Source: a virus | Direction: 5' to 3' (one strand) | Virus record (IMG/VR): IMGVR_UViG_3300031812_000007 | Location: 1 to 42,382 of that record | DNA length: 42,382 nucleotides | Shown: positions 18,891-37,648 of the stretch, piece after piece | Layout: each line of letters opens with the position of its first letter | Position numbering within the stretch: position 1 is the stretch's first letter | The notes under the pieces: model-generated | The model's database searches: none | The model's input: the letters and a program-made list of their open reading frames with translations, nothing else | Told to the model about the DNA's origin: nothing | Program-made: the position numbers and the translations under genes

Positions 18891-20108
18891 ATGAGAAAGT
18901 TCAAGGGATGGCTCGAAGCGTACCTGGAGTTTACAGGGCCTACGGAGGCCCCCACTGTATTCCACTTCTGGGTGGGTGTCGGCACCATCGCTGCGGTGCT
19001 CCGCCGTAAGGTCTACATCAACCAGGTCTTCTTCGAGTGGACCCCCAACTTCTACATCTGCCTCGTCGCCCCGCCCGGTGTCGCGACGAAGTCCAGCGCC
19101 ATCGGCATCGGTGAGCAGTTGCTCGCTGATCTGGGAACCATCCGGCTTGGCCCCAGTGCGGCCACATGGCAAGCCATGATCAAGATCCACGTAGAGGCGG
19201 CGGAAGCCGTTCAGATGCCTGACGGGTCGTGGATGCAGATGTCCTGCGTGACATACTGCACCTCCGAGCTTGGGACCCTTGTCAACTTCCACGACCCGCA
19301 GATGATTGACGTGCTGTGCGATCTGTGGGACGGAAGGAGGACCTGGTCCAAGGCGACAGCCCACTTCGGCTCTGCCGTGCTGGGCAACCCGTGGGTGAAT
19401 ATCATCGCGGCCACGACGCCGGCTTGGTTGTCGGACAACCTGCCGACAAGCCTGCTCGCCGGAGGCTTCGTCGCGCGGACGGTGTTCGTGTACGCGGACC
19501 GGAAGCGCCAGCTTATTGCCTATCCCAAGGAGCACTTCGCCAAGGTTCAGCACAGGGTTCGGAGGGAGGATCTGCTGAGCGATCTAGAGAGAATCTCCCT
19601 TCTCAAGGGAGAGTTCCAACTAACGCCGGAGGCCATTGAGTGGGGCACGAAGTGGTATGAGAAGCTCTACCACGAGTTGCAGTCTGCGCAGACCACCGAG
19701 TGGCAAGGATACCTTGCCCGGAAGCAGACCCACGCCCACAAGTTGGCTATGGTCCTGTCCGCTTCCCGCTCCGACTCCATGGTCATCGAGGCAAGTGACC
19801 TGCAACGGGCCGTGCGGTACCTTGATGAGATCGAAGCGGGCATGTTCGAGGTCCACCGCATGATGGTGTTCACGTCGGAGGGCGAGCAGACCAGCCGGTT
19901 AGTGGACCTTGTGGCCAAGCGCGGCCCGATGCCCCTCTCGGTCCTCTACAGGGCCTACTTCTCCCGCTACGGAACGAGCTTTCAGGACTTTCAGAAGATC
20001 CTGGAGTCCGCCCTTCGGGCAGGCCTTATTGTGGAGTGGGCTGACGGGGGGCGGATACTGGTGGGTACGCCTGCCTCAGCTCCCGAGCAAGGGGAACAAG
20101 TTCCTTAG
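18891..20108 (+). CDS. DUF3987-like replicative helicase/ATPase
   Basis: A 405-aa protein with a P-loop-like LVAPPGVATKSSAIGIG (K67, S68; Gly of the usual GKS/T replaced by Thr66), the later NPWVNIIAATTPAWLSDNLP and AGGFVARTVFVYA. These match the core of DUF3987-type phage helicases encoded beside family A polymerases. A C-terminal winged-helix-like part (about 330-395; LVDLVAKRGPMPLSVLYRAY) may bind DNA. It would unwind DNA at the fork; no primase domain is visible, so priming may come from the host. The ribosome binding site is weak. Last gene of the rightward block; its end overlaps the opposing late gene by 83 bases. Confidence 0.7.
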   Translation: MRKFKGWLEAYLEFTGPTEAPTVFHFWVGVGTIAAVLRRKVYINQVFFEWTPNFYICLVAPPGVATKSSAIGIGEQLLADLGTIRLGPSAATWQAMIKIHVEAAEAVQMPDGSWMQMSCVTYCTSELGTLVNFHDPQMIDVLCDLWDGRRTWSKATAHFGSAVLGNPWVNIIAATTPAWLSDNLPTSLLAGGFVARTVFVYADRKRQLIAYPKEHFAKVQHRVRREDLLSDLERISLLKGEFQLTPEAIEWGTKWYEKLYHELQSAQTTEWQGYLARKQTHAHKLAMVLSASRSDSMVIEASDLQRAVRYLDEIEAGMFEVHRMMVFTSEGEQTSRLVDLVAKRGPMPLSVLYRAYFSRYGTSFQDFQKILESALRAGLIVEWADGGRILVGTPASAPEQGEQVP

Positions 20109-23100
20109 AGAGCGGGTAGCCGCGGAGGCGGAGCTGGGTGTTCTTCACCCGGGTGCGGAGGGACTCGGCCAGCTCCCGAGCCGTGATCCGGAACTCCCTC
20201 GGCGCAGTGCGGTTGAACTCCACAATTTCCCGCCGGGCGTCTGCGGCTGCCTCTCGGTCCTTTGTGGCAATCGCACGAGTGTAGGCGGAAAGGATGGCCG
20301 ATCTACGGCCGGTGTAGTAGCGGACCATGTCATTCAGCACAATGTTCCGCTCCGCCTCTACCGCCACCCGAGTGGGCTGGAAGCCCAGGGCCTGCCCTAC
20401 GATCTCTGCGATGTGACCCGGGTTGTGCAGGTCGAACTTGACGATGACCCTGCCGTGGGAATCCGTGGCTGCGCCGAGGCTCAGGTACTCCGCTGCCCGG
20501 GCTATGTTCCGCACGACGGCGGGGGCCGCGACGCGCAGCGTGTAGAGGGAGTCCGACCCGTGGGTCATCATGGCCTTGGCCATGGTGGTCATGGTGGAGG
20601 CACCGGCACCGGCTGTCTCCAGGATCATCCCCAGCACGGCCTCCTTCCACTCCCTCTCACCGAGCAGTCCTGCAACCAGCGGCTCTGTGGGCAGGACGTA
20701 GCCCATCTGAATGGAGGGTGCTATGTTGAAGGCCGGGAAGGGCACGCCGAAGAGGCGCTCCGAGGCTACAAGGCCCAGCGAGTACTTGGACAACCCGTCC
20801 ACCAGATAGTCGGGGTTCGTGCCCAGCTCGGCGAGGAAGCGCCGGATCAGGAGGAGTAGGTCTGTGTAGGGGTTTTCCGAGCCGAGAAGCTCCTTGGCCT
20901 TCGTCAGCAGAAGCTTCAACAGGTCCGCGATGTTCTTGGCGAAAGGCAGACCGGCGAGGCCTCCTAACAGGCCCATCCCAAGCCAATACCGCCACCCACC
21001 CTTGCTCTTGAGACTGAACTGCCCCTCCTTCCCCGTGAAGCTGTAGTAGAGGGCGTTCTGCAGGAACATGCGGAACACGAAGAAGGGCGCGGCGATGCCT
21101 CGCATCAAGCGGGGCCGGGCAAGGCGGGTGTACTCGAACATCGTATCGTCCACCGCCTTGCGGGCAAGGCGGAATGCCTCCTCCGGCCCCGCCCCCTTGG
21201 CGGCAGCCAGCCGGTACGTCGCCACGAACGTGACTCGGCGCATGAACTCCTCAGAAAGCCGGAACCCGTACGTGGCCCAATCGAGCAGAGGTTTGAGGAC
21301 TCGATCTCCGAGGTCCAAGGGCAGCGCCCTCGTCAGGAGCTGCCGCTCGGCGTAGGCCGAGACCTCAGTTGCATAGCTCTCGTTGATGAAGCCTTCCTTC
21401 ACCGCTCGCCTGACCGCGTCCGCCACGTCGGAGAGGTTCTCCATGTAGCGGCTCGGCTTGGAGATGTGGGCGATAGCCCGGGACAGCTCCCTAACCGTTG
21501 CGCGGTCTCCGTAGGTGTCAGCCAGGTAGGGGTAAGTGAAGAGCGGGAGCTGCGTGAGGTTGACGAGGATCTGCTTGGGGTTGAACCCGAAGTACCACAG
21601 GAACAGCCCGCCTCGCAGAACGGCGAACTCGTGCCCCGGATTCATCAGGTATTCGTAGTGCCGGTTCACCTCACTCACCAGCCGGTCGTACGCCACCGAG
21701 TCAAGGGGCTGCTTGGCGGCCAGCTCTTTGAGGTCGCTTATGGCCTGCTCCAGCTCCCATCGGTACTTCAACCTGGGCAGGTGGTTTGACACCGAGCGCA
21801 TGTAGCTGGCGTAGGCCCGCTGGGCATCCCGTGAGAAGCCCTTGATCCCGCGGCGACGTCGCAGGTACTTCACGAAGCTCCGGCCCGGCGCGTAGCGGTA
21901 CATGATGTCCTTCAACAGGACCTTCTGCTCGTCGCTCAGCTCCAGTTGAGAGGCTAGCTGCCTGAACAGCGAGGGCGGAAAGCCCGTGAAGTTGTGCACG
22001 GCGTCCCCGGCCATTTGCACCTTCACCTGGACTGCGTCCGCGGGGAACTTCTTCAGCATCTCCGCCTGATAGGCTTTAGCCTCCCGCAGGCGCTCCCACG
22101 ACGTCACCTCCACCGTGTCCCCTTCCTTGAATCGGCGGTCCTCGTAGGTTACCGGGCCTTTGGCCTTGATCACGACCATGTACTTCCCGAATCTGGCCAT
22201 CGGGAAGTAGGTCCTGTCCCTCAGCCTCGCGAACTCGATTCGGATCTCCGTCTCGCGCAGGAACTTGTCAATGGTATCCCCGCCCAGCTTGTTGGATTCC
22301 TCGATCAGCTCCTGCTCAAGGGTGTTGAGCACCCACTTGAGGTCCCCCAGCACGCGGTGGAACACCCACATCACTTCCTTGTCCGCACCCAGCTTCTTGG
22401 CCAGCTCGTTGATCTCCTCCTGTGTGAGGGGTCTACCGAGGGTCTCCGACTTCTCGGTGGCTTGCAGGAGCATCTCACTCAGGATGTTCGCCCTGCGCAC
22501 GCCGAGGCGGGACCACTCAGTGAGGCGGTCGTAGGCCATGCTGGTGATAGACGTCTTGTAGGGCAGCCACTTGCCCCTCGCAATGTCTACGTACCGCCGC
22601 AGAGGCTCGATGTGCGGGTTCCGGTCCGCCCATTGCAGGATGTGCAGCGCCCACTTGGAGAACCACCCGAACCGGACTGTGGTCTGCTGCACGTCCTGTT
22701 GCACGCTGGGCGGCAGGGCTTGCGCCCCTACGAAGCTGGAGAGTTGGGGGTCCGGCTCGGGGGTTCGGGGTTCTCGGATGTACTCGAAGTAGGCATCGTC
22801 GGCTGGCTGTCTTTTCCAACTGCCTGGAGCAAATCGTTCAGGGTCAAGCCAGCGTTCACCTCCGCCCATTGAAGGGGTCTGTCCCCGGGTTCTTCCGGCA
22901 GCTGGAAGCCCAGCAGTCGGGCCGCCGCCTCTACTGCCAGGAGCAGCTCCGCTACGTCCTTCGAGCGCAGTCGGGGGTCCGACAGGACCAGGTGTTTGGT
23001 AATCGCTAAGTCGTCCTTGTGCCTCTTGTCCGGGCCTAGCTCCAAGTGGTGCTGGACGAACTGCTTCAAGTAGTCTGGTACTTGCCTCATATACCCTCCT

Positions 23101-26100
23101 GTAATGCTGCGTCACAATTTCGCTTCGATCCAGCGGTCTGCGTTGTATTGACGAGAACACGCTATAGCTTTCCTTCCAGAACTTCTCTTGTAGGGCCTTT
23201 TCGATCTCATCTACGGTCTTCTTGTCACGCCCGATGATGGACTCCGTGATCCTTGCTAGCGCGTTAGCGAGACCGAACTTCATCTCCGGGTCCAGCGCAT
23301 CTATCTCTCTAAGGGTCTGAGAGAACTCTTGGTCGTGTTTGAAGGCCGTAATGTGGGACAACTCGTGGATCACCGTTTTCACTACGTTCAAGGCCCACGC
23401 AGTCAGCGTCGGTTCCTCTGAGGAGACCACGCCGGAGGGAAGCCTCAAGAAGAAATTCCCCGTGAACACTATAGTCGCTTCGTTGTTCCCCCAGTGGTGA
23501 ACGAAGTACGCGCGCATCTCTTCGGCGGCTACAGGGCTGACAGTGTAGGCTACTCTGATCTTGGGCAGGGTTCCATACCTTCGCATCCAAGGGGGGGAGT
23601 TCTGGATTCGTTCGAGGTACTCGTCTACCGTCAGGCGAATAAAGTTCATGAACGTAGAGATGTTCTTCAGCCGTTTGAAGGCTGCCTTGACGGTCTCCGG
23701 AGTAGGCTCCATAACAAGGAAGAGCTTCTCTCCCGATAACAGATAGGGATGGAATGTCTCCCGCCATGCCTGTGCGTCGGTGATGGACTCGGAGAACACC
23801 AAGTAGTATGTGCCTGTGGGGTCCGGGTGCCGGAGGAGGTGCTGGTGTGCGGCCTCGTCGGTTATCTCTCGCAGGAAATAGTTCTGTTGGGGGTCGGCGG
23901 AGTGCCTGTGTAGGAAGTCCCACCATCGGCTGTTGACCGGGTCAAGCCCTAGGGTCAAGGCTCGGCGCACAAGCCGATAGGCGTCGTTTCCCAGGCTATC
24001 AGCCGCCCGGACGATCTCATGGACCAGACGCCGGTAGCTCGGGCTTTGCATCGCCCTCTGCCACGTCTCTGCTCCGTAGAGGACGGACAAGTCCCTCGTG
24101 ATTGTAGCGGTCCTTGCGTCTTGGGGGAGTGAAGGGTCTGCTGCCCCCGCCGCTCGCACAATGGGAAGGATGCCGTATGAGGTTTGGATCTCCGTGGGGG
24201 AGCTGACAGCGATCTGTAGGGGCGGCGGCGGCAGGTCCGGTGCAGGACTTGTCTCCTCCCAGAACTGCGTGTAGGCCTCCAAGAGACTCCGGTACTTCTC
24301 CGAGAGCATGCTCAGCTCGGGGCCTGTAAACAGGCCGGTGGTGTCTACGAACCCGGCCTTGAGGCCAAGGCGCTTCAGTCTTTCAAGGTACTCAGAGTAC
24401 GCGAAGTCCCACTTCGTGGCGTGGAACTCCCGCGCCTCGGACCACAGCGCCCTGTACTCTGAGACGGGCCTCAACTGCCCTGTGCGAGGAAGCTTTCTTG
24501 GTCGCTCCTGAACGAACTGGTACAGGTTCTTGAACAGGTACGCCAGTGTCTCGTTGGGATCTTCGATCCTAGCGGTAGCGCCGATCTCTTGAAGGGCTTG
24601 CTCCAACCTCTGCACGATCCGGGGCCGGGCCGGGTCCATGGCCCGGATAGTTGCAAGTAGGGCCTGCTGGAAGTTCTGCGACCCGTGGAGCAGGGAGAAT
24701 GTGTGCGCCAGCTCGTGCGCAATTGAGTTCGTCAGTTGGTGCGGGTTCAGGGCCGCGGCAGGCCCCACCGAGATGTGGAAGCCCTCACCGTCCAGCCTTG
24801 GGTCGAGTCGCAGGATGGTGGAGGCATCCGGCCAGTCAATGCCAAGGCGGATGCCGCGGTACTGCTCTCTGAGCAGGCCGAATGTCTGCGGGGCGGATTG
24901 CGCCGCGGCGTCTAGGGCAAGCCGGATGGAGTCGTCAACGGCTGCGAGCCACTTCTGCAGGCTCTCAGGCAGGGAGCTGAAGCTCTCCGAGAAGCCCTCG
25001 ATGGGCCGCGGGCCGCCTTCGCCCACCTGGAAGACCTCAAGCGGCCTCCCGTCAGGGAGCTTCACCTCCACCTTGGGCATCTGCACATGCTCGTAGCCCA
25101 TCACATTCACGAGGTCCAAGATCGCCCTGCGCTCCTTCGGGCTTCTGGACAGGGCTACAAGCCGGGACAGAATCTCGTTCGCTTGCGCGAGGCGCAGGGT
25201 TTGCTCGCGGCTTGCCTCCTGCAGCTTCTGCACGATGGGGACCATCTCAGGGCGGGTGAACGGCCCCAGCTTATCGTCTGGCAGCTCGATGCCCGTGCTC
25301 TCCTTCACTGCAAACCGAACCGTTGTAGGCAGGTCCACAGGGTTGAGATCTTCCACGTGGATGATAGGCCTCGCCCCTTCCTCGGTCTGCAACTGCAAGG
25401 AGACCTTCGGTCCGATGGCCAGGTGCGGGGGCGTTACGCCCTCGGGCAGGGCCTCCTTGATGGCCTGAGCCAAGGGCGCAGCTTGGATCGTCAGCTCGTC
25501 CAGCTTCGAGCTGGGAGTCACCATGCCGGTGTCAACGACGGAGGAGGGCACCTTGAGCCGCTCCGTGCGGCTCTGAGCGTCTACGGCCTCGATCTGGGCC
25601 AGCTCTTGCACAGGTGACGGCTCTGCTGGGGAGGGGGCCGAAGGCCTCGTCGCGAAGTGCTCTATCACCCCACCGGCTCCACCGAAGAGGCCTCCGACCA
25701 CAGCGGCTGCGGCTCCCGCATTGATCACTCGTTCGAGGATCTCTTCACCGGCAACCGGAATCTTGTTTATGCGCACTGCCTGAATGTCAAGCAGCTCTTG
25801 AGCGACCTCAGTGGGAACCTCTGTTGCCACACCCTTAAGGGCTTCTGATGCGAACTTTTTGAGAGCGGGGGAGGTAGCCTTGCTGGTGACGGCCTCCTCC
25901 AACACCTTTCGAGGTATAAGCTTGATCTTGCCCAAGAACCTAAGTGGGGTCACCACGTCTAGCCCCGCCTTGAGAGTACCGATTGGCAATGCCGTGTTTC
26001 GGGCCTGTTCATGGGGAACTCCCCTGCTGGCCAGCTCGTTGTATGTCTCGCCGGCGTTCAGCATGAAGGCCCCGATAAGGGCACCGACGGTTGCACCTAC

Positions 26101-26493
26101 CGGCCCGCCGAGCACGGCACCTGCTGCGCCGGATGCAGCGACAGCTCCCATGAAGGGAACCTGGCTCGCGGCGTTTGTGATGATCCAGTTGACGGCGTCT
26201 CCGACGTTTCTGATTTGGGTGACGCTGGGGATAGGCGTTTCCTCTGGGGGTGGGCCTGGTTTTACGATTCCAAAGGCCGTGGCAGTGCCGCGAAGGGAGT
26301 GAAGCACCCCCGTGACCCCCGACGCGAGGCCCTCAAGAATCCCACTGGCCTGCTTCGGCTCCTTCGCCAAGGCCTGCACTTCAGGTGGCAGGTCCTCAGG
26401 CTTCACCGGAATGGGGCTAGCGAGCGCGCGCACTTCAGGTGGCAGGTTTTCAGGTCTCACTGGGATTGGTGTCTTCACTTGGTTCTGAACCAC
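20026..26493 (-). CDS. Giant polyvalent/ejection protein with two zincin-like domains, 2155 aa
   Basis: Last gene of the late block. The N-terminus has two tandem copies of IPVxPExLPPEVxALA (about 9-43), then an Ala/Gly-rich hydrophobic region (about 110-150). Two metallopeptidase-like motifs follow: HELAHTFSLLH (593-603) and HELSHITAFKH (1043-1053), both HExxH with a third His six residues on. A Pro/Gly/Arg-rich stretch (about 1145-1220) overlaps an embedded reading frame. The C-terminal ~900 residues resemble the large alpha-helical domain of phage polyvalent proteins, with FGFNPKQILVNLTQLPLF near 1630 and an amphipathic or membrane-active stretch after it. Such proteins are packaged and ejected with DNA. 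Start is GTG at 26493, overlapping the previous gene by 19 bases. Confidence 0.75.
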   Translation of the reverse strand: MVQNQVKTPIPVRPENLPPEVRALASPIPVKPEDLPPEVQALAKEPKQASGILEGLASGVTGVLHSLRGTATAFGIVKPGPPPEETPIPSVTQIRNVGDAVNWIITNAASQVPFMGAVAASGAAGAVLGGPVGATVGALIGAFMLNAGETYNELASRGVPHEQARNTALPIGTLKAGLDVVTPLRFLGKIKLIPRKVLEEAVTSKATSPALKKFASEALKGVATEVPTEVAQELLDIQAVRINKIPVAGEEILERVINAGAAAAVVGGLFGGAGGVIEHFATRPSAPSPAEPSPVQELAQIEAVDAQSRTERLKVPSSVVDTGMVTPSSKLDELTIQAAPLAQAIKEALPEGVTPPHLAIGPKVSLQLQTEEGARPIIHVEDLNPVDLPTTVRFAVKESTGIELPDDKLGPFTRPEMVPIVQKLQEASREQTLRLAQANEILSRLVALSRSPKERRAILDLVNVMGYEHVQMPKVEVKLPDGRPLEVFQVGEGGPRPIEGFSESFSSLPESLQKWLAAVDDSIRLALDAAAQSAPQTFGLLREQYRGIRLGIDWPDASTILRLDPRLDGEGFHISVGPAAALNPHQLTNSIAHELAHTFSLLHGSQNFQQALLATIRAMDPARPRIVQRLEQALQEIGATARIEDPNETLAYLFKNLYQFVQERPRKLPRTGQLRPVSEYRALWSEAREFHATKWDFAYSEYLERLKRLGLKAGFVDTTGLFTGPELSMLSEKYRSLLEAYTQFWEETSPAPDLPPPPLQIAVSSPTEIQTSYGILPIVRAAGAADPSLPQDARTATITRDLSVLYGAETWQRAMQSPSYRRLVHEIVRAADSLGNDAYRLVRRALTLGLDPVNSRWWDFLHRHSADPQQNYFLREITDEAAHQHLLRHPDPTGTYYLVFSESITDAQAWRETFHPYLLSGEKLFLVMEPTPETVKAAFKRLKNISTFMNFIRLTVDEYLERIQNSPPWMRRYGTLPKIRVAYTVSPVAAEEMRAYFVHHWGNNEATIVFTGNFFLRLPSGVVSSEEPTLTAWALNVVKTVIHELSHITAFKHDQEFSQTLREIDALDPEMKFGLANALARITESIIGRDKKTVDEIEKALQEKFWKESYSVFSSIQRRPLDRSEIVTQHYRRVYEASTRLLEAVRPAPLGARPGQEAQGRLSDYQTPGPVGPPTALEGRSGAAPGSRGGGPTAGLPAAGRTRGQTPSMGGGERWLDPERFAPGSWKRQPADDAYFEYIREPRTPEPDPQLSSFVGAQALPPSVQQDVQQTTVRFGWFSKWALHILQWADRNPHIEPLRRYVDIARGKWLPYKTSITSMAYDRLTEWSRLGVRRANILSEMLLQATEKSETLGRPLTQEEINELAKKLGADKEVMWVFHRVLGDLKWVLNTLEQELIEESNKLGGDTIDKFLRETEIRIEFARLRDRTYFPMARFGKYMVVIKAKGPVTYEDRRFKEGDTVEVTSWERLREAKAYQAEMLKKFPADAVQVKVQMAGDAVHNFTGFPPSLFRQLASQLELSDEQKVLLKDIMYRYAPGRSFVKYLRRRRGIKGFSRDAQRAYASYMRSVSNHLPRLKYRWELEQAISDLKELAAKQPLDSVAYDRLVSEVNRHYEYLMNPGHEFAVLRGGLFLWYFGFNPKQILVNLTQLPLFTYPYLADTYGDRATVRELSRAIAHISKPSRYMENLSDVADAVRRAVKEGFINESYATEVSAYAERQLLTRALPLDLGDRVLKPLLDWATYGFRLSEEFMRRVTFVATYRLAAAKGAGPEEAFRLARKAVDDTMFEYTRLARPRLMRGIAAPFFVFRMFLQNALYYSFTGKEGQFSLKSKGGWRYWLGMGLLGGLAGLPFAKNIADLLKLLLTKAKELLGSENPYTDLLLLIRRFLAELGTNPDYLVDGLSKYSLGLVASERLFGVPFPAFNIAPSIQMGYVLPTEPLVAGLLGEREWKEAVLGMILETAGAGASTMTTMAKAMMTHGSDSLYTLRVAAPAVVRNIARAAEYLSLGAATDSHGRVIVKFDLHNPGHIAEIVGQALGFQPTRVAVEAERNIVLNDMVRYYTGRRSAILSAYTRAIATKDREAAADARREIVEFNRTAPREFRITARELAESLRTRVKNTQLRLRGYPLSKELVPLARELRQAYPPVSAPRQPTPQ
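22728..23090 (-). CDS. Embedded overlapping reading frame, 120 aa, with strong ribosome binding site
   Basis: Lies wholly inside the 2155-aa gene in another frame. The ATG at 23090 is preceded by AGGAGGGTAT, as good a ribosome binding site as any in this genome, and an in-frame TGA lies eight codons upstream. The product reads like a real soluble helical protein (VPDYLKQFVQHHLELGPDKR, DVAELLLAVEAAARLLGF, GLTLNDLLQAVG) and ends in a Pro/Ser tail. Over the same bases the large frame is low-complexity Pro/Gly/Arg. Either an overprinted gene or a sign of compensating frameshifts in the large gene. Function unknown. Confidence 0.5.
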   Translation of the reverse strand: MRQVPDYLKQFVQHHLELGPDKRHKDDLAITKHLVLSDPRLRSKDVAELLLAVEAAARLLGFQLPEEPGDRPLQWAEVNAGLTLNDLLQAVGKDSQPTMPTSSTSENPEPPSRTPNSPAS

Positions 26494-30196: not shown

Positions 30197-30384
30197 GTCC
30201 CGTTGACCCTTGCGTAGTAGCCCCGACCGGAGCCGGGGTTCCAGTTCGTCCCGTCCGCATACACCACCATCGGCTCGTAGATCCGACGCGGCTCCCTGTG
30301 CTGCTCCTTGAGGAGCAGCTCTCTCAGCTCCTGCACCTCAGCGCGGAGCGCCTCAAGCTGCTGTTGAAGGTCGTCTACAACCAT
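30181..30384 (-). CDS. Small virion-region protein with N-terminal coiled coil, 67 aa
   Basis: Residues 1-30 form a leucine-rich coiled coil (LQQQLEALRAEVQELRELLL); residues 39-67 form a compact segment (VVYADGTNWNPGSGRGYYAR) that looks like a small beta module seen at the C-terminus of some phage structural proteins. GGAGG is seven bases before the ATG. It sits between the nozzle and GNAT genes; probably a minor virion or assembly protein, by position only. Confidence 0.65.
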   Translation of the reverse strand: MVVDDLQQQLEALRAEVQELRELLLKEQHREPRRIYEPMVVYADGTNWNPGSGRGYYARVNGTWVKL

Positions 30385-31919
30385 CCCAGATCCTCCGCAA
30401 CCTCCAAGGCGTAGCCGTGCAGGGTCCAGTCTTGCGTCCCCGTGTGCTCAAACCTGATGTCGAAGAACCGTCCGGTGACGTATACGTCTACCTTCTTCTC
30501 GTTTGTCGTGTAGATCTTCTGCACCACCGGTCCAGCTTCGTCCGACAGGTGCATCCGGCCACGCACCGTCACAAGGAACGACGTGGGCGTTGGGGCCTCA
30601 AAGCGAGGCCAAATGGACATGAGACGCTTCACGCGCGGGGGCGGCTCAATGGAGAGCCACTTGCGCTCCAGCACGCTGTGCGTCTCGCCAACCGTTCGCG
30701 AGGGCCGCTTGACAGTGCTGTCCGCACACGCAAGCACGATGCTCCCAATCACCTCCCGGCTGGCTACCGCCCCTATGTCCCACTGATCCCTTCCGGAGTT
30801 CCAGTCCCCGCTGCTGCCGCTCCACCGGTCCACAGCCGACCTAGCAACCCCAACCGCAGCAGCCCCCATTACCCTGCTAAGGGACCTGATGGTCCATGTG
30901 TTGTATGCCCAGTTCCACACCAAGGCTGTGTCCAGCTCCGTACCTCCCGTCGGAAACAGGATCCACACCTCACGTGTCAGACGGTCCGGCACCACACAGA
31001 CCCGGTGGCGGCTCTGAGCACGCAGGTTCCTGAAGAACCAGGACCGAACCTTGGGTGTGGCAATGCTCTGCACGCCGCCCTGCGACAGCAGGACGATGTC
31101 GTTGTCCGTCACCACGAAGTGGCCTGTGCCGATGTCGGCTACCGCCCCAAGCGCTAGGATGCCTGAGGTGTTCGACACCTGGGAGAAGGCAAACACGCTC
31201 ATGCCGCCGACATAGCGCATGGCCCAGGTGGAGGTTTCACCGTAGATGATGTTCACATCACCCAGGGGGAGGCAGTCCACCAAGGCGTCCGATCCCGGCA
31301 CAAGCACCACTTCTCCCGCGTCCACTGCGGGGTCCGCCTCGTTCCAACTGGCCGGTACCGTACCCGGGTCTGCGGTGTGAGACCACTTCACCATGCGCGG
31401 GAAGGTACCCGAACTCTTCTTGACGTTGAGCGCCACTAAGTGGTACTTGAAGGGCCGCAAGGCCCCAGCCGTGGTGCCCGCGGGCCAAGCAGGCAGGTCT
31501 ACCAGCCGTACGCTGACGTCCTGATCAAGCCAAGCCTGCGGCGTGTCTACTCCGTTGTTGAAGATCGGCACGCCGTTGAAGTCTGCTAGGTGCCATCTGT
31601 GCTCCAAGCTCCCGCTGTACGGACCGGAAGTCCGAGTGATGTTTCCCTCGTTTCCCTCCACACTACGGGCGTAGATGCTCTCCCTGTCTGCATAGATGTA
31701 GTGGCTCGTAAGCGTGCCCGGGATGAACATCAACTCCAACGGCTCGACTTGGGTGTCGAAGGCCACCTCAAGGCCCCGTGCCTTCTTGGCGACCCCTTCC
31801 TCAAACACCACTCCTCGAACGTCAGTCCACACGTTGATCGGAACCTGACGGTAGGCGTCGGGAGAGAGGTCCTTCACGACCCCGTGCTCGCCCGGAGATG
31901 TCACCTCAACGAAGATCAT
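30375..31919 (-). CDS. Tail nozzle-like protein (beta-propeller type), 514 aa
   Basis: Nearly all-beta, with repeated W/Y-rich strands (YIYADRESIYARS, IIYGETSTWAMRYVGG, ALVWNWAYNTWTIRSL) consistent with a multi-bladed propeller, as in the tail nozzles of short-tailed phages (T7 gp12, P22 gp10). Directly downstream of the adaptor gene with an ATGA overlap, the expected order. It should form the lower tail tube that opens at infection. Identified by context and strand pattern, not by a unique motif. Confidence 0.65.
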   Translation of the reverse strand: MIFVEVTSPGEHGVVKDLSPDAYRQVPINVWTDVRGVVFEEGVAKKARGLEVAFDTQVEPLELMFIPGTLTSHYIYADRESIYARSVEGNEGNITRTSGPYSGSLEHRWHLADFNGVPIFNNGVDTPQAWLDQDVSVRLVDLPAWPAGTTAGALRPFKYHLVALNVKKSSGTFPRMVKWSHTADPGTVPASWNEADPAVDAGEVVLVPGSDALVDCLPLGDVNIIYGETSTWAMRYVGGMSVFAFSQVSNTSGILALGAVADIGTGHFVVTDNDIVLLSQGGVQSIATPKVRSWFFRNLRAQSRHRVCVVPDRLTREVWILFPTGGTELDTALVWNWAYNTWTIRSLSRVMGAAAVGVARSAVDRWSGSSGDWNSGRDQWDIGAVASREVIGSIVLACADSTVKRPSRTVGETHSVLERKWLSIEPPPRVKRLMSIWPRFEAPTPTSFLVTVRGRMHLSDEAGPVVQKIYTTNEKKVDVYVTGRFFDIRFEHTGTQDWTLHGYALEVAEDLGWL

Positions 31920-33137: not shown

Positions 33138-33745
33138 CTCAACACCCCTACAACAGCGACTGCCGCCGAACCAAGCAGCAACCACTTCTGCCACTTAGAG
33201 AGCTTCGTGGCTTGCTTCACATTGGCCGTGGCCTCCCGCACGTTCTCGGCAATCGCGGGGGTCTCCCGACGCCAAGTGCGCGCGGTCTGGGCCAGCTCTC
33301 CGGCCGTTACCTTGGACGCAGCAGTGAAGCCCAAGACCTGCGGAGTCACAAGCTCCACCATCCGGTTCGTAGACTGGAGGACTCGAGATGCGTCCGCTCG
33401 CAGTACAGACAGCTCGCTCACGAGCTTCTCTTCCGTCGAGGTTAGCCCTCGTTCCACTTGGCGCTCCAAGCCCTCCAGCCTACGATCCAGAACGAGGCGG
33501 AACCCGTCCACCTCGCTCCGAAGGTCCTTCCTCACGGCTCTCAGCTCTGTCCTCAGCTCAGCACGGGTGGCCTGGATCTCAGCGATGGCGGCAGCCCGGG
33601 TGGCGCGGATTTCATCCACCGCGTCGGCCCGGGCTGCACGGACTTCGTCCCTGATGCCCAGGACCGCTTCCCGGACCCCCGCCGCGAGCCACGCAAAGCT
33701 GAGGGCCACAACCATGACACCGATGCTAAGAGCCTCACGCAACAC
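33134..33745 (-). CDS. Membrane-anchored coiled-coil protein, possible spanin-like lysis protein, 203 aa
   Basis: Hydrophobic segment at residues about 6-24 (SIGVMVVALSFAWLAAGV), a long Arg/Ala/Glu coiled coil (about 30-120; VDEIRATRAAAIAEIQATRA), and a second hydrophobic end (LLLGSAAVAVVGVL). Directly follows the lysozyme gene with an 11-base overlap. An N-terminal membrane anchor plus coiled coil next to an endolysin recalls inner-membrane spanins, but the C-terminal hydrophobic end is atypical. GTG start. Confidence 0.6.
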   Translation of the reverse strand: MLREALSIGVMVVALSFAWLAAGVREAVLGIRDEVRAARADAVDEIRATRAAAIAEIQATRAELRTELRAVRKDLRSEVDGFRLVLDRRLEGLERQVERGLTSTEEKLVSELSVLRADASRVLQSTNRMVELVTPQVLGFTAASKVTAGELAQTARTWRRETPAIAENVREATANVKQATKLSKWQKWLLLGSAAVAVVGVLR

Positions 33746-34187
33746 CGCTCAACCCCCGAAGGAAGATGGCTCTCTCTCGCTTCCTTCTATCGTACAGGCC
33801 TCTTGAGAACCGCCCCTTCACGTTGGACCACCGCAGGAACTCATCGGCGGCCTCCTGATACCTGCCCTCCTTCAGCAGCCTCACAAGGGTGGAACGCTCC
33901 ATCGCCTTCGTCCCCACGTTGTAGGTCCACAGAACTAGCGCGTCCCACTGATTCTGGTTCAGCCTGACACCCTGCAAGGCCTTGCGCAGGGCTGGCTCGA
34001 CCACTTTGCTGATGTGCTCCACCATCAGCTTCCGAGCCTCCTCCCGCGTGATGGACTTGCCCTTGTACTTCTCCGGGTCCACGTGGGTCCCGAAGCCGAT
34101 GGCGTGGCCCTTTACATCGAACTTCAAGATCGGCGTAAAGCCCTCCAGGCTCTCTAGAATCTTCAGGGCTTCCTCGCTGACCTTCAC
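33735..34187 (-). CDS. GH24 lysozyme (endolysin)
   Basis: A 150-aa T4-lysozyme-family muramidase that cuts the glycan strands of peptidoglycan at lysis. LESLEGF holds the catalytic-type Glu15, FDVKG the Asp24 at the usual spacing, then HAIGFGTH. The Thr normally found just before IG is Ala29, and the loop is one residue shorter than in T4 lysozyme. The C-terminal half (NQWDALVLWTYNVG, LVRLLKEGRYQEAADEFLRW, FSRGLYDRRKRERAIF) is typical. I choose GTG 34187 (GAGG eight bases upstream) over GTG 34196. No signal peptide, so it needs the holin encoded at 37620. Confidence 0.88.
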   Translation of the reverse strand: MKVSEEALKILESLEGFTPILKFDVKGHAIGFGTHVDPEKYKGKSITREEARKLMVEHISKVVEPALRKALQGVRLNQNQWDALVLWTYNVGTKAMERSTLVRLLKEGRYQEAADEFLRWSNVKGRFSRGLYDRRKRERAIFLRGLSGVA

Positions 34188-34238
34188 GTTGCCCACCTCA
34201 CAATGTCAATCTCCGAGCGTGCTGGTGCAATGGCGATT

Positions 34239-36839
34239 CTACCTGACATCCGGACCACTCCAATACCAGCGCAGCGCGTCAACAGCCTTAGAAGACGCTT
34301 CCCGCGTATCTACGTAGAAGACCGGAGCCATGGCGGCGGTGGTGGAAATGTTAGTATTAATGGTCACGTCCGGACCATCGTCCAAGTTGAACACGATAGT
34401 GCCCGACGTCGTAGAACGGATTCTGAGTTTGTGCCAGTTTTCGTCCACTGACACCCCAGATGCAGTGCGAGTGTTGTTTGTTCCGTTGTGCGTGGAGAAA
34501 AAGAACTGCGTATCGCCCGCGGTTGTGTCGAAACTGAGTCCAATGTGGGCATTGGTCCAAATGTCAAACGTGCCACCCCTTATGTAACCAACGAACATTC
34601 TCACGTTGGAAGTAGCATTCAAGCGGAAGCGAAATACCGAATCCCAGCCAGCATAGCTCCCGATCCTACCGATTATCGTGCCCCCCGGTCCAATACTACC
34701 AAGGCTGATAGCACAGAAGCTACCGCTCGTATTAGAGCTGGTTAACCGTACCGTCTTCGACCCATTGCCAGTGCCGACATGGGTTGCCCCGCCGTTGGTG
34801 CAGGACAGCTCCCATCCGTAGGTGCCTATGGTGTTCGATGTGGTTGCTCTGTTCGGGAAATTCTCACGATACCAGAGAACGGTCTCGTCCAGCGCGTCGA
34901 AGCTCCCTCCGCCTCCACTCACCGTAACCGGTTTCCACTGTGACTCAGACGCGCTCCACACCAGAGCCTGCCCGTCGCTCGGAGCGGCGCTGGACACATT
35001 GCGGCCCTGAATCCTAGCGACCGTGGTGGAACCTACGTCTCCGGTCACATCGCCCGCCAGCGTGTGGCTGTGCGCATCAAAGCACACCCACGCACCATTG
35101 ATCCGCCGAGCGATTGCACCGGTGCCGCTGCCCGTGCAGGTCGCAGCCACTGTGCAATCTGAGCAATAGCCGTACGAGCCGTTTGCAAAACTGTCTAGTT
35201 GCGAGTAACTCAGCGTGAAGCCTTGCACTCTTAAACCGGAACCTGAGTACGGCGTGCTTGGCAACGCGATTGAACCAAAATGGTTGTCTGCTGCGAGGCC
35301 GTTCGTTCCGCTGTACGCGATACCTGTAGTTGTATTTACCGTGTATGTGAACAAGTTCCCGCTGAACAATGCCGCATCCACGTACTGATTCGCCGATATG
35401 ACCGCACTGCAAGTCGCGCTTGGCATGTGAGTAAAACTGTTGTTCGCTACTAGGGCATAGTAGATCGGCACACCGTTTTGACCGGCTAGCGTTATTGCGG
35501 GGCTGTTACCACTCACCACACGGAACTGATTCCCGATGATGCCGACCGTAGAGATGTAACCGCCTCCCGTTGCCGTTTGGATTCGGATGCTGCCCATACC
35601 GTCAAAAGCGTTCCCTTCGATTAGCCCAGCGCCTGTGTTTTGGCCTCCGTTCAGAAAATCCAAAGCGTACCCTCCGTTTCCAGTGAACTTGTTCCCAATC
35701 AAGCCCGTGAAACCACATCTTGAGTAAACTCCCGTCTCCACTTCCAGAATTTGAGTCTGCTGAATCAGCGCTTCGCATGCATCCGAGTTGTCCGAATGTA
35801 TTACCGAAACCCCTACCGAGCCAGAAAAAGATGCATCGGCTAGCCGAAGTACAGAATCTCGAATGTGGAGCCTGGTTACACGATCCACATCTACGGCTTT
35901 CCAGAACCTAACTATCCAAACCCCGTCCAGACCCAAATATTCCAGCCATTTGTTTGCTGCCTGGTTAACCTTTATTGCTGAACCGCTTGACGATGCTCCA
36001 GCCGACCGAGTCATGGTTATGTTCCTGAATCTCACAGCGCGCACATAGTTTGCATCCGGTATGGAAATTACAAACAGATCACCGGCCCCGCCCGCACGAT
36101 ACAATACCGAACCACGCGAAACATCCCAGTCTACACCAGAGCCTTCGATAGTAACCGAGCTGGCAATGTCCAGTTGGCCTACAAGGTAGATGCCAGGTGG
36201 AAACCAAACCGTTCCGCCTACAGCTTGGGCGGCATTTATCGCTGACTGGATTGACGTTGTATCATCCGTTACGCCGTCACCGCGCGCACCAAACGCCTTC
36301 ACATTGAACACGGCTCCGCCCTGATCCCGCAACTCAGCCTTGATCGGTTTGGAAGAAGAGACATCCGACGTGCTTTCCGTGAGTGAGGAGTTACCTAAAG
36401 TAGACCCTGTAACCCACCTAGCCAAGCTGCCTGCGCTACCGCTGCCGCCAACACCGCCGCCGCCCGTGCCACACGGCCCCGCCGCACTCTCAAGGCGCGC
36501 CCCGTCCGGCGCTACCTGGACGCACCTACCGCCCACCCAACTGGCCTGACCGGTACCGCCCCTATTCAGTTGCAGTACACCCCTCGTCTGGCGGTTGATG
36601 TCCACCTGAGTCTGCGCGTGCCCGAAGAGGGCACAGAGCAACAAACAGGCCAGCCAGTAGAACCTCTGCCTCGAACCGTTCCCGGATCGAAAGAGTGCTG
36701 ACTTCAACCTGCCCACCTCCACCAACTTACTGAGCCTCCAGACGGCTGTCGTGCGCGGAAGCCCTGCATAGGCCGCATAGTCCGCAGCCGTGAAGGAGCC
36801 TTGGGGCGGAGCCGCCCCAGTCCCGCACCTGAGACGCAT
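34239..36839 (-). CDS. Tail spike with pectate-lyase-type beta helix and unusual N-terminus, 866 aa
   Basis: ATG 36839 has GGAG in front and lies 11 bases after the preceding stop. Residues about 14-60 look like a winged helix (FTAADYAAYAGLPRTTAVWR), then a hydrophobic stretch (FYWLACLLLCALFGHAQTQ, 60-78), like a signal peptide or anchor. From about 175: VFNVKAFGARGDGVTDD and GGTVWFPPGIYLVG begin a pectate_lyase_3 beta helix that should bind or cut a host surface polysaccharide. Around 590-640 is HTLAGDVTGDVGSTTVARIQ, common in tail fibres; the last ~200 residues resemble a concanavalin-like lectin domain (ENWHKLRIRST). An alternative TTG start at 36707, eight bases after GGAGG, would drop the winged helix. 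Confidence 0.8.
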   Translation of the reverse strand: MRLRCGTGAAPPQGSFTAADYAAYAGLPRTTAVWRLSKLVEVGRLKSALFRSGNGSRQRFYWLACLLLCALFGHAQTQVDINRQTRGVLQLNRGGTGQASWVGGRCVQVAPDGARLESAAGPCGTGGGGVGGSGSAGSLARWVTGSTLGNSSLTESTSDVSSSKPIKAELRDQGGAVFNVKAFGARGDGVTDDTTSIQSAINAAQAVGGTVWFPPGIYLVGQLDIASSVTIEGSGVDWDVSRGSVLYRAGGAGDLFVISIPDANYVRAVRFRNITMTRSAGASSSGSAIKVNQAANKWLEYLGLDGVWIVRFWKAVDVDRVTRLHIRDSVLRLADASFSGSVGVSVIHSDNSDACEALIQQTQILEVETGVYSRCGFTGLIGNKFTGNGGYALDFLNGGQNTGAGLIEGNAFDGMGSIRIQTATGGGYISTVGIIGNQFRVVSGNSPAITLAGQNGVPIYYALVANNSFTHMPSATCSAVISANQYVDAALFSGNLFTYTVNTTTGIAYSGTNGLAADNHFGSIALPSTPYSGSGLRVQGFTLSYSQLDSFANGSYGYCSDCTVAATCTGSGTGAIARRINGAWVCFDAHSHTLAGDVTGDVGSTTVARIQGRNVSSAAPSDGQALVWSASESQWKPVTVSGGGGSFDALDETVLWYRENFPNRATTSNTIGTYGWELSCTNGGATHVGTGNGSKTVRLTSSNTSGSFCAISLGSIGPGGTIIGRIGSYAGWDSVFRFRLNATSNVRMFVGYIRGGTFDIWTNAHIGLSFDTTAGDTQFFFSTHNGTNNTRTASGVSVDENWHKLRIRSTTSGTIVFNLDDGPDVTINTNISTTAAMAPVFYVDTREASSKAVDALRWYWSGPDVR

Positions 36840-36850
36840 CAGCTCCGCCT

Positions 36851-37648
36851 CTAAAGCTTCAAAAGTGAAACCGGCTTCAGACTTGGCAGGGGATACAGGA
36901 TCTTTCGCACCCCTACCTGCTCCGGAGCCACGTCGAGCACCACCGCTCCGATGTCCGGCACCATCCGGTACACGCTCCGACGCCGCATGAAGCGAGTCTG
37001 CAATTGCCAGCACGGAGTCACCACCGCGTGCTTGCTCGCGTGTTCCACGTGCACGAAGTAGTGCGCGTGGCTCCTCACGATCACGTCTGCCTTCGGCAGG
37101 CAGCCCGCCTTTCCCGCCAACGCGGACCATAGCGCCTCCCTGTCAATGGCTACTGCTCGGTAGAGTCCGGTTCCTGTAGAGATGCCATGAGCAAAGTTGA
37201 CAACAACTCCACCACATTCCAGATCAAGGACCTCTCTCGTATAAACTCCTGCACCAAGTCCGGTGTAGGCAGTTCCGACCCGGCTCGCCACCACCTCCAC
37301 CTCCCGGCCCACCTCCGAGTCGTGGAATTCGGTGCCCTGAATGAAGAACCACTTTGCGCTCCGACAGCCGAGTGCCTGCAATACCTGTAGGCAGGCCTCG
37401 GCCTGATCCACAGGACTCTGGAGGCACAGCTCTCCTCTTCGCCCGTCCACCAAGTCGCCGTTGACCACCACAACATCCGGACGGAGCCGCCTGACGCGGG
37501 CCGCCAGGTCCATCCAGCAGTCCCAAAGGTACTTCTGGCCGATATTCTGCCGGATCTCGTTCCCGCGACTGTCGTGGTAGCCGGGAGGAAGCAGTCCATA
37601 GACACTCCCTACGTGAAGGTCACTGACCACCAGAATCCGTACCGCCAT
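36851..37648 (-). CDS. Calcineurin-like metallophosphoesterase
   Basis: A 265-aa two-metal phosphoesterase. Motifs in order: VSDLHVGS (Asp10, His12), VNGDLVDG (Asp65), GTEFHD in place of GNHE/D (105-110), FAHGIS (His154) and SHAHYFVH in place of GHTH (His194, His196). The Asn of GNHD is replaced by Thr. Phage relatives are common, with unproven substrates: phosphodiesters, cyclic nucleotides or nucleic acid ends are candidates. The position between holin and tail spike genes gives no clear role. ATG with AGAAGG upstream; it starts inside the holin 3' end. Confidence 0.85.
   Translation of the reverse strand: MAVRILVVSDLHVGSVYGLLPPGYHDSRGNEIRQNIGQKYLWDCWMDLAARVRRLRPDVVVVNGDLVDGRRGELCLQSPVDQAEACLQVLQALGCRSAKWFFIQGTEFHDSEVGREVEVVASRVGTAYTGLGAGVYTREVLDLECGGVVVNFAHGISTGTGLYRAVAIDREALWSALAGKAGCLPKADVIVRSHAHYFVHVEHASKHAVVTPCWQLQTRFMRRRSVYRMVPDIGAVVLDVAPEQVGVRKILYPLPSLKPVSLLKL

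Follow-up and report, generated by a model that had tools for sequence, protein, structure and literature searches.

A phage tail-spike reading frame with a fused winged helix and a signal-peptide-like segment behind a candidate internal start

Why should the reading frame of a phage tail spike open with a helix-turn-helix-like segment, and continue into a signal-peptide-like hydrophobic run, before its beta helix begins? The frame in question lies in a virus record, IMG/VR IMGVR_UViG_3300031812_000007, whose 42,382 nucleotides are referred to throughout as the window. On its minus strand this stretch encodes a capsid protein and an adaptor, both of SU10 type, along with an endolysin and the tail proteins. 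An earlier reading, made from the letters alone, had placed the spike frame at 34239-36839 without naming a strand; the coordinates are right, and the frame runs on the minus strand from an ATG at 36839 to its end at 34239. The longest frame in the window, of 2155 residues (20026-26493, minus strand), shares the strand of the structural genes. For the spike frame we favour, with somewhat better than even confidence, a reading in which a tail spike with a native Sec-type signal peptide has been fused to a winged-helix gene, and would be translated from an internal start, exported, cleaved and later docked on virions.

A tail spike joined to a winged-helix gene

The C-terminal bulk of the frame belongs to a familiar class. 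Residues 178-240 match the rhamnogalacturonase/pectate-lyase family PF12708 with 54.7 bits against a cut-off of 27, and PHROG assigns the protein to the tail spikes (phrog_2234; E-values in Table 1). The gene is of the pectate-lyase beta-helix type, with tail-spike kinship and a late-gene position. It resembles other pectate-lyase-type tail spikes (PF12708; PHROG 2234) in these domain matches and in lying among late genes beside an endolysin, but differs from them at its N-terminus, where a signal-peptide-like stretch stands behind a winged helix. An AlphaFold2 model of the full spike, built from three sequences, had a mean pLDDT of 40 and was set aside.

The N-terminal region was modelled far more confidently: across residues 11-60, blocks of ten residues reach mean pLDDT values of 89-97. 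Helices at residues 18-25 and 29-42 and wing strands at 45-51 and 57-63 indicate that residues ~14-63 form a winged helix, as judged from the helices and the beta wing of the model. The helix-turn-helix-like segment that the sequence-only reading had seen at residues 14-60 is therefore borne out by the model, and also by the profile match to separate genes described below. Foldseek searches with the winged helix returned helix-turn-helix regulators (MarR, PadR and ArsR type), O-methyltransferases and Z-DNA-binding domains among their top rows, the best E-value being 0.056, with zero rows at 0.001; Pfam recognised no helix-turn-helix family on the fused frame.

The origin of this segment is suggested by the gene upstream, a metallophosphatase, for which ten IMG/VR loci with relatives were compared. 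In six of them (L028, L029 (= L022), L030, L035, L031 and L032 (= L023)) the metallophosphatase is followed by a separate, stop-terminated winged-helix gene; five distinct sequences are represented, L030 and L035 encoding the same protein. The fusion occurs in one locus, L026 (= L002; phage G001), and no winged helix was detected by profile in the remaining loci L027, L033 and L034. A profile built from the five separate genes matches the window frame with an E-value of 9.9e-7 in a search of 3375 frames from 13 contigs. When aligned with the window frame, the separate proteins place their final aromatic strand (YW, YQ, YN, YR or FW) on its residues 61-62; they end 2 to 16 residues past this strand, whereas the window frame continues into a hydrophobic core. 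Given a separate gene with its own stop in the relatives, together with this alignment, the winged helix is a neighbour gene that has been joined to the spike here and in G001. Its existence as a gene of its own in five other phages means that it does not belong to the spike proper, and the idea that winged helices are a general component of spikes was rejected: in relatives the domain is free-standing behind the metallophosphatase. The fusion is a trait of this lineage, represented by the window and one close relative, G001 (L002). The sequence-only reading had looked to the start regions of relatives for a verdict on both segments, and the outcome is divided: the winged helix proves to be a separate gene in five phages, while the hydrophobic segment is still present, as judged by eye, in L153, the nearest spike homologue with a start available for comparison.

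The pairing of a metallophosphatase with a small winged-helix gene recurs (window 36851-37648; L022, L023, L028, L030 and L031). The stop codon of the winged-helix gene overlaps an ATG (ATGA) in L022, L028 and L031, and a GTG (GTGA) in L023. A scan of genome contigs with a profile from the metallophosphatase alignment gave zero confirmed relatives.

Table 1. Features of the spike frame and of its two neighbours in the window
Feature	Position	Strand	Basis or remark
Fused frame: winged helix, signal-peptide-like stretch and tail spike	34239..36839	-	866 aa; L002 has the same fusion
Winged helix-turn-helix, residues 14-63 (predicted)	36651..36800	-	Profile of five separate genes; AlphaFold2; alignment
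GGAGGTG, Shine-Dalgarno-like, within winged-helix coding sequence	36714..36720	-	Duplex energy -14.1 kcal/mol
TTG, codon 45, candidate internal start of exported spike	36705..36707	-	Signal rule and Shine-Dalgarno energy
Signal-peptide-like segment from codon TTG45 through Ala75: n-region with positive charge, then core WLACLLLCALFG and GHA|QTQ	36615..36707	-	Signal rule; L002 protein identical there
Linker: RGGTG and cysteine pair C106/C123, 17 residues apart	36468..36605	-	Kin to L153 and L002 linkers
Pectate-lyase-like beta helix, beginning (PF12708, residues 178-240)	36120..36308	-	Pfam E 1.6e-14; PHROG tail spike E 2.4e-16
Metallophosphatase gene, upstream of spike frame	36851..37648	-	PF00149; separate winged-helix gene next in several relatives
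Endolysin gene, immediately downstream of spike	33735..34196	-	PF00959, phrog_7

The signal-like segment and its candidate start

Residues 61-78 of the fused frame read YWLACLLLCALFGHAQTQ and contain the hydrophobic run ending in GHAQTQ that had been picked out from the letters. Signal-like character was judged by a hand-written, home-made rule that demands positive charge; some leaders were missed by it and then judged by eye, namely those of L153 (missed because of the charge requirement), a fibre of phage G016 and one L154 frame. Read from the TTG at codon 45, the frame gives MKSALFRSGNGSRQRFYWLACLLLCALFGHA|QTQ with a predicted cut at GHA75|Q76; the segment opens with MKSALFRSGNGSRQRFY, followed by the core WLACLLLCALFG and G-H-A|Q. 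By the home-made rule this corresponds to the anatomy expected of a Sec signal, with a positive n-region, a hydrophobic core of 7-15 residues and small residues at -3/-1. The window leader scores 5.34. Across 13 phage contigs, in counts that leave out the spikes of the window and G001 themselves, 15 of 4273 internal start codons pass the rule, as do 8 of 847 internal stretches of 70 codons, none of them scoring at least 5.3. When residues 46-85 are shuffled, 1.1% of the shuffles pass and 0 of 20,000 reach the window score, so that the signal shape lies above chance by this rule.

The alternative TTG start noted earlier behind a GGAGG is indeed present, eight bases past that motif (Table 1). 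Its Shine-Dalgarno duplex, calculated against a generic 16S tail, is stronger than those of 23 of the 24 window ATG gene starts tested (25 genes were listed, one of which is not ATG), and among the 634 other internal start codons in frame, 6 have one as strong. The corresponding value for ATG1 is moderate, at -7.5. Two products from the one frame, as had been suggested, are possible. The GGAGG lies in codons for the winged-helix stretch VEVG and may for that reason be a coincidence. The signal would stand at the N-terminus of a product only if translation begins at codons 39-45.

L002, a separate record, shows the frame to be conserved. Over residues 1-113 the two proteins do not differ: the coding sequences show 15 synonymous codon changes and 0 replacements, and five of the 15 fall in codons 64-69, within the hydrophobic core; after residue 113 the window and G001 spikes diverge. 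Upstream only two synonymous codons in 63 differ, a difference too small to speak for or against selection on the winged helix. A search with the leader and linker against 14 phage records gave zero matches.

Signal-like starts on other phage tail genes

The homologue L153 shares the linker and parts of the spike (46% identity over residues 78-209 and 68% over 587-706). It has no winged helix and begins at its own ATG behind AGGAGG with a signal-like MHVLLVVISLCAAAWA|QT, assigned by eye; the frame comes after a long one resembling a tape measure. The N-terminal domain of L153 is 39% identical to that of the G016 fibre-like protein, each of the two opening, as judged by eye, with a signal-like stretch; a scan of genome contigs with the fibre N-terminal domain gave one 30-residue Pandoraea match, which we do not rely on. 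Further signal-like starts occur on spike or tail-region frames of G009/L011 (a PF12708 spike), G017/L022, G018/L023, L154, where the rule fires on four frames, and L003/G002. Family matches are absent for several of these proteins, whose tail role is therefore judged from position and composition. The feature is not universal among kin: three phages with related capsid proteins, G003, G005 and G010, have zero long frames with a signal by the rule, in a count over phages that was not blind and for which frame picking was revised so that the window spike was included. In L149, a 20-residue signal-like stretch precedes a domain matched by PHROG tail-protein profiles: residue 21 falls at profile position 2 in eight PHROG matches and three more keep the same register (11 of 15). 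Loss of the signal would thus leave the N-terminus that such tail proteins normally have.

Spikes in general are another matter. Among the best 80 of 478 confirmed PF12708-type spikes in IMG/VR, 77 have a closed upstream frame, and three of these 77 pass the rule, one of them strongly (L149); of the 207 frames of at least 300 residues in the loci of the same best 80, four pass, three being those same spikes. Signal-like starts are thus rare on spikes, at 3/77 by rule from the best 80 of 478. The sequence-only reading had called an export signal on a phage spike unexpected, which holds for this sample of spikes, but several phages, some of them cultured, bear such signals on genes of the tail region.

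Five phages of Acidobacteriota, the Tunturi records, have been described (PMC11924767), and the terms 'signal peptide' and 'mass spectrometry' have no occurrences in the main text of that article. Tunturi_1 has signal-like starts on five tail-region genes (gp12, 13, 14, 16 and 17), with none on the other 11 of 16 late genes examined, and Tunturi_2 has them on four of nine genes examined. In Tunturi_4 they are absent from the nine genes examined in the first 50 kb and present on both genes examined near the other end (gp113 and gp114); none was seen on 17 examined genes of Tunturi_3 or seven of Tunturi_5, in records scanned in part. Homology between Tunturi_1 gp17 and Tunturi_4 gp114 sets in at residues 390 and 16, respectively, with 47% identity thereafter, yet each has its own signal. 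The rule also fires on small non-tail frames, one in the Tunturi_3 stretch, four in Tunturi_4 and one in Tunturi_5. The tail-region proteins of Tunturi_1, _2 and _4, cultured phages of Acidobacteriota hosts, thus resemble the window spike in bearing signal-peptide-like N-termini on spike or tail genes; unlike it, they have their own start codons, and the winged-helix fusion was not seen. When 15 window proteins were compared by tblastn with the Tunturi stretches examined, the endolysin alone matched.

A conserved signal-like start is also found on BcepC6B gp19 (L068:3658-4731) and its homologue orf35 of Xanthomonas phage PBR31 (L162:2432-3241), while the spike or fibre gene just before each is without one. 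These are short tail fibres (PHROG 11393), related to one another, for which no kinship to the window spike was found here. They are annotated as tail fiber protein and putative structural protein, and the signal goes unmentioned in the annotation rows examined.

Disulfides are available to proteins folding in the periplasm. Cysteine content was compared in a test conceived once the sequences had been seen. The sample consisted of 21 signal-bearing tail-region proteins, hand-picked after their sequences had been seen and some of them mutually homologous; it omits, among others, L003, other L154 genes, Tunturi_2, Tunturi_1 gp16, two G017 genes and G014. Mean cysteine in this sample is 1.82%, compared with 1.14% in 56 signal-free A3 spikes (p 2e-4); the window's nine other structural genes range from 0 to 0.77%, and eight Tunturi_1 genes without a signal from 0 to 1.11%. 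An even number of cysteines is found in 16 of 19 complete signal-bearing proteins, as against 24/49 and 30/61 in controls (Fisher p 0.007 for the former). In the linkers, cysteines are paired 17 residues apart in the window (106/123), in G001 (106/123 and 687/704) and in L153 (213/230, 357/374 and 408/425). The group pattern fits folding outside the cytoplasm; the window spike itself has 11 cysteines after the cut, an odd number that adds no support.

Further genes with signal-like or hydrophobic starts may be mentioned. G017 has two signal-like-start genes amid frames resembling head genes (L043:16596-17393 and L044:1661-2575, both minus strand). G014 has a 900-residue phrog_3287 (virion structural) protein with a weak signal-like start scoring 3.19 (L066:6843-9545), unlike its counterpart in the window (30375-31919), which has none. 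The L003 phage, which shares the C-terminal part of the window spike, has a frame resembling a subtilisin-type protease by eye, with a hydrophobic start, near a lysozyme-like frame (L003:5200-6690).

Proposed export of the spike and competing readings

As the comparison with relatives shows, the spike has been joined in frame to the 3' end of a small winged-helix gene, which is free-standing in other phages. In the favoured reading the working spike would initiate at TTG45, by means of the GGAGGTG lying within winged-helix codons, leave the cytoplasm through the Sec system of the host, be cut after Ala75 and fold with disulfides in the periplasm; it might then meet virions at lysis, or act in released form as a glycan-binding or glycan-cutting protein. 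Initiation at ATG1 would also yield a winged-helix-spike fusion, probably as a minor or by-product. With the spike start moved inside the winged-helix gene, one frame would therefore give both a DNA-binding fusion and an exported spike. We extend this to tailed phages more widely with real hesitation: some of them may make spikes or fibres as Sec precursors that pass through the inner membrane, shed the signal, acquire disulfides in the periplasm and dock on the particle only at lysis, the frame studied here yielding the fusion besides.

The virion proteins pIII and pVIII of M13 are made with Sec signal peptides, and filamentous phages assemble at the membrane without lysis. The scheme proposed for the spike is alike in giving a virion protein a Sec signal, but it concerns a tailed phage with capsid and endolysin genes.

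The competitor that fares best, though we consider it improbable, is that the signal-bearing spike is exported yet forms no part of the virion, being released instead to degrade glycans or to coat surfaces. It would then resemble exported accessory proteins of phages such as lambda Lom, which is described as carrying a membrane-localisation signal peptide and going into the host membrane (PMC12309495). The signal and the cysteine pattern argue for export and not for assembly, as this reading would have it; against it, spike and linker are of tail type, the L149 signal-like start is joined exactly to a domain that opens phage tail proteins, and Tunturi_1 has such starts on five tail-region genes.

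Tail spikes and fibres of tailed phages are generally held to assemble in the cytoplasm. This view, and the 74 of 77 control spikes (from the best 80 of 478) that lack such a segment by rule, would suit a hydrophobic segment that serves no export and is instead inherited sequence or part of the packing of the spike on the tail. We think this unlikely given the cysteine parity and the case of Tunturi_1 gp17 and Tunturi_4 gp114, homologous only from residues 390 and 16 on and yet each with a signal.

ToxR and CadC are membrane-bound winged-helix regulators, and the product expected from ATG1 matches their order of winged helix, hydrophobic segment and outer domain. Were ATG1 the sole start, the winged helix would remain inside the cell and the spike outside, held by an uncleaved membrane anchor; the single open frame, the moderate Shine-Dalgarno sequence of its ATG and the well-folded winged helix of the model agree with this. 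Such an arrangement is nonetheless decidedly unlikely, as the hydrophobic core is of ~12-14 residues with a cut site of A|Q type behind it, relatives encode the winged helix separately, and a spike makes an odd sensor domain. The uncleaved transmembrane helix of ~20 residues expected of a ToxR/CadC-type membrane regulator was not found, the core of 12-14 residues being followed by a cut-site motif.

Chance or an assembly artefact, with a hydrophobic run and a purine-rich stretch mimicking signal and start, is very improbable and was rejected, for single features of this kind do arise by chance but two separate records with synonymous-only change in the segment, the homologue L153, recurrence in cultured phages and the background counts of the rule all speak against it.

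A partial literature search (passages including those from PMC12309495, PMC12633290, PMC11924767 and PMC3426561) turned up no account of spikes or tail fibres that bear signal peptides. Signal peptides together with a disulfide-type cysteine pattern on successive tail genes would imply that tails can be assembled by a second route, or that spikes are secreted into a pool. The N-terminus of such proteins may also be set wrongly in automated gene calls. The reading can be tested directly, as the feature is shared by phages in culture with their hosts (Tunturi_1, _2 and _4 with Tunturiibacter). As to the host of the window phage, Acidobacteriota is a guess, prompted by the A|Q style of the signals and by a gene of the OMP_b-brl_4 type in G016, a type that we take to be linked to Acidobacteriota. 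This G016 gene (L041:1425-4904, minus strand) encodes a 1159-residue outer-membrane beta-barrel of CarboxypepD_reg / OMP_b-brl_4 type with its own signal-like start; it sits among long frames resembling tail genes and may be cargo.
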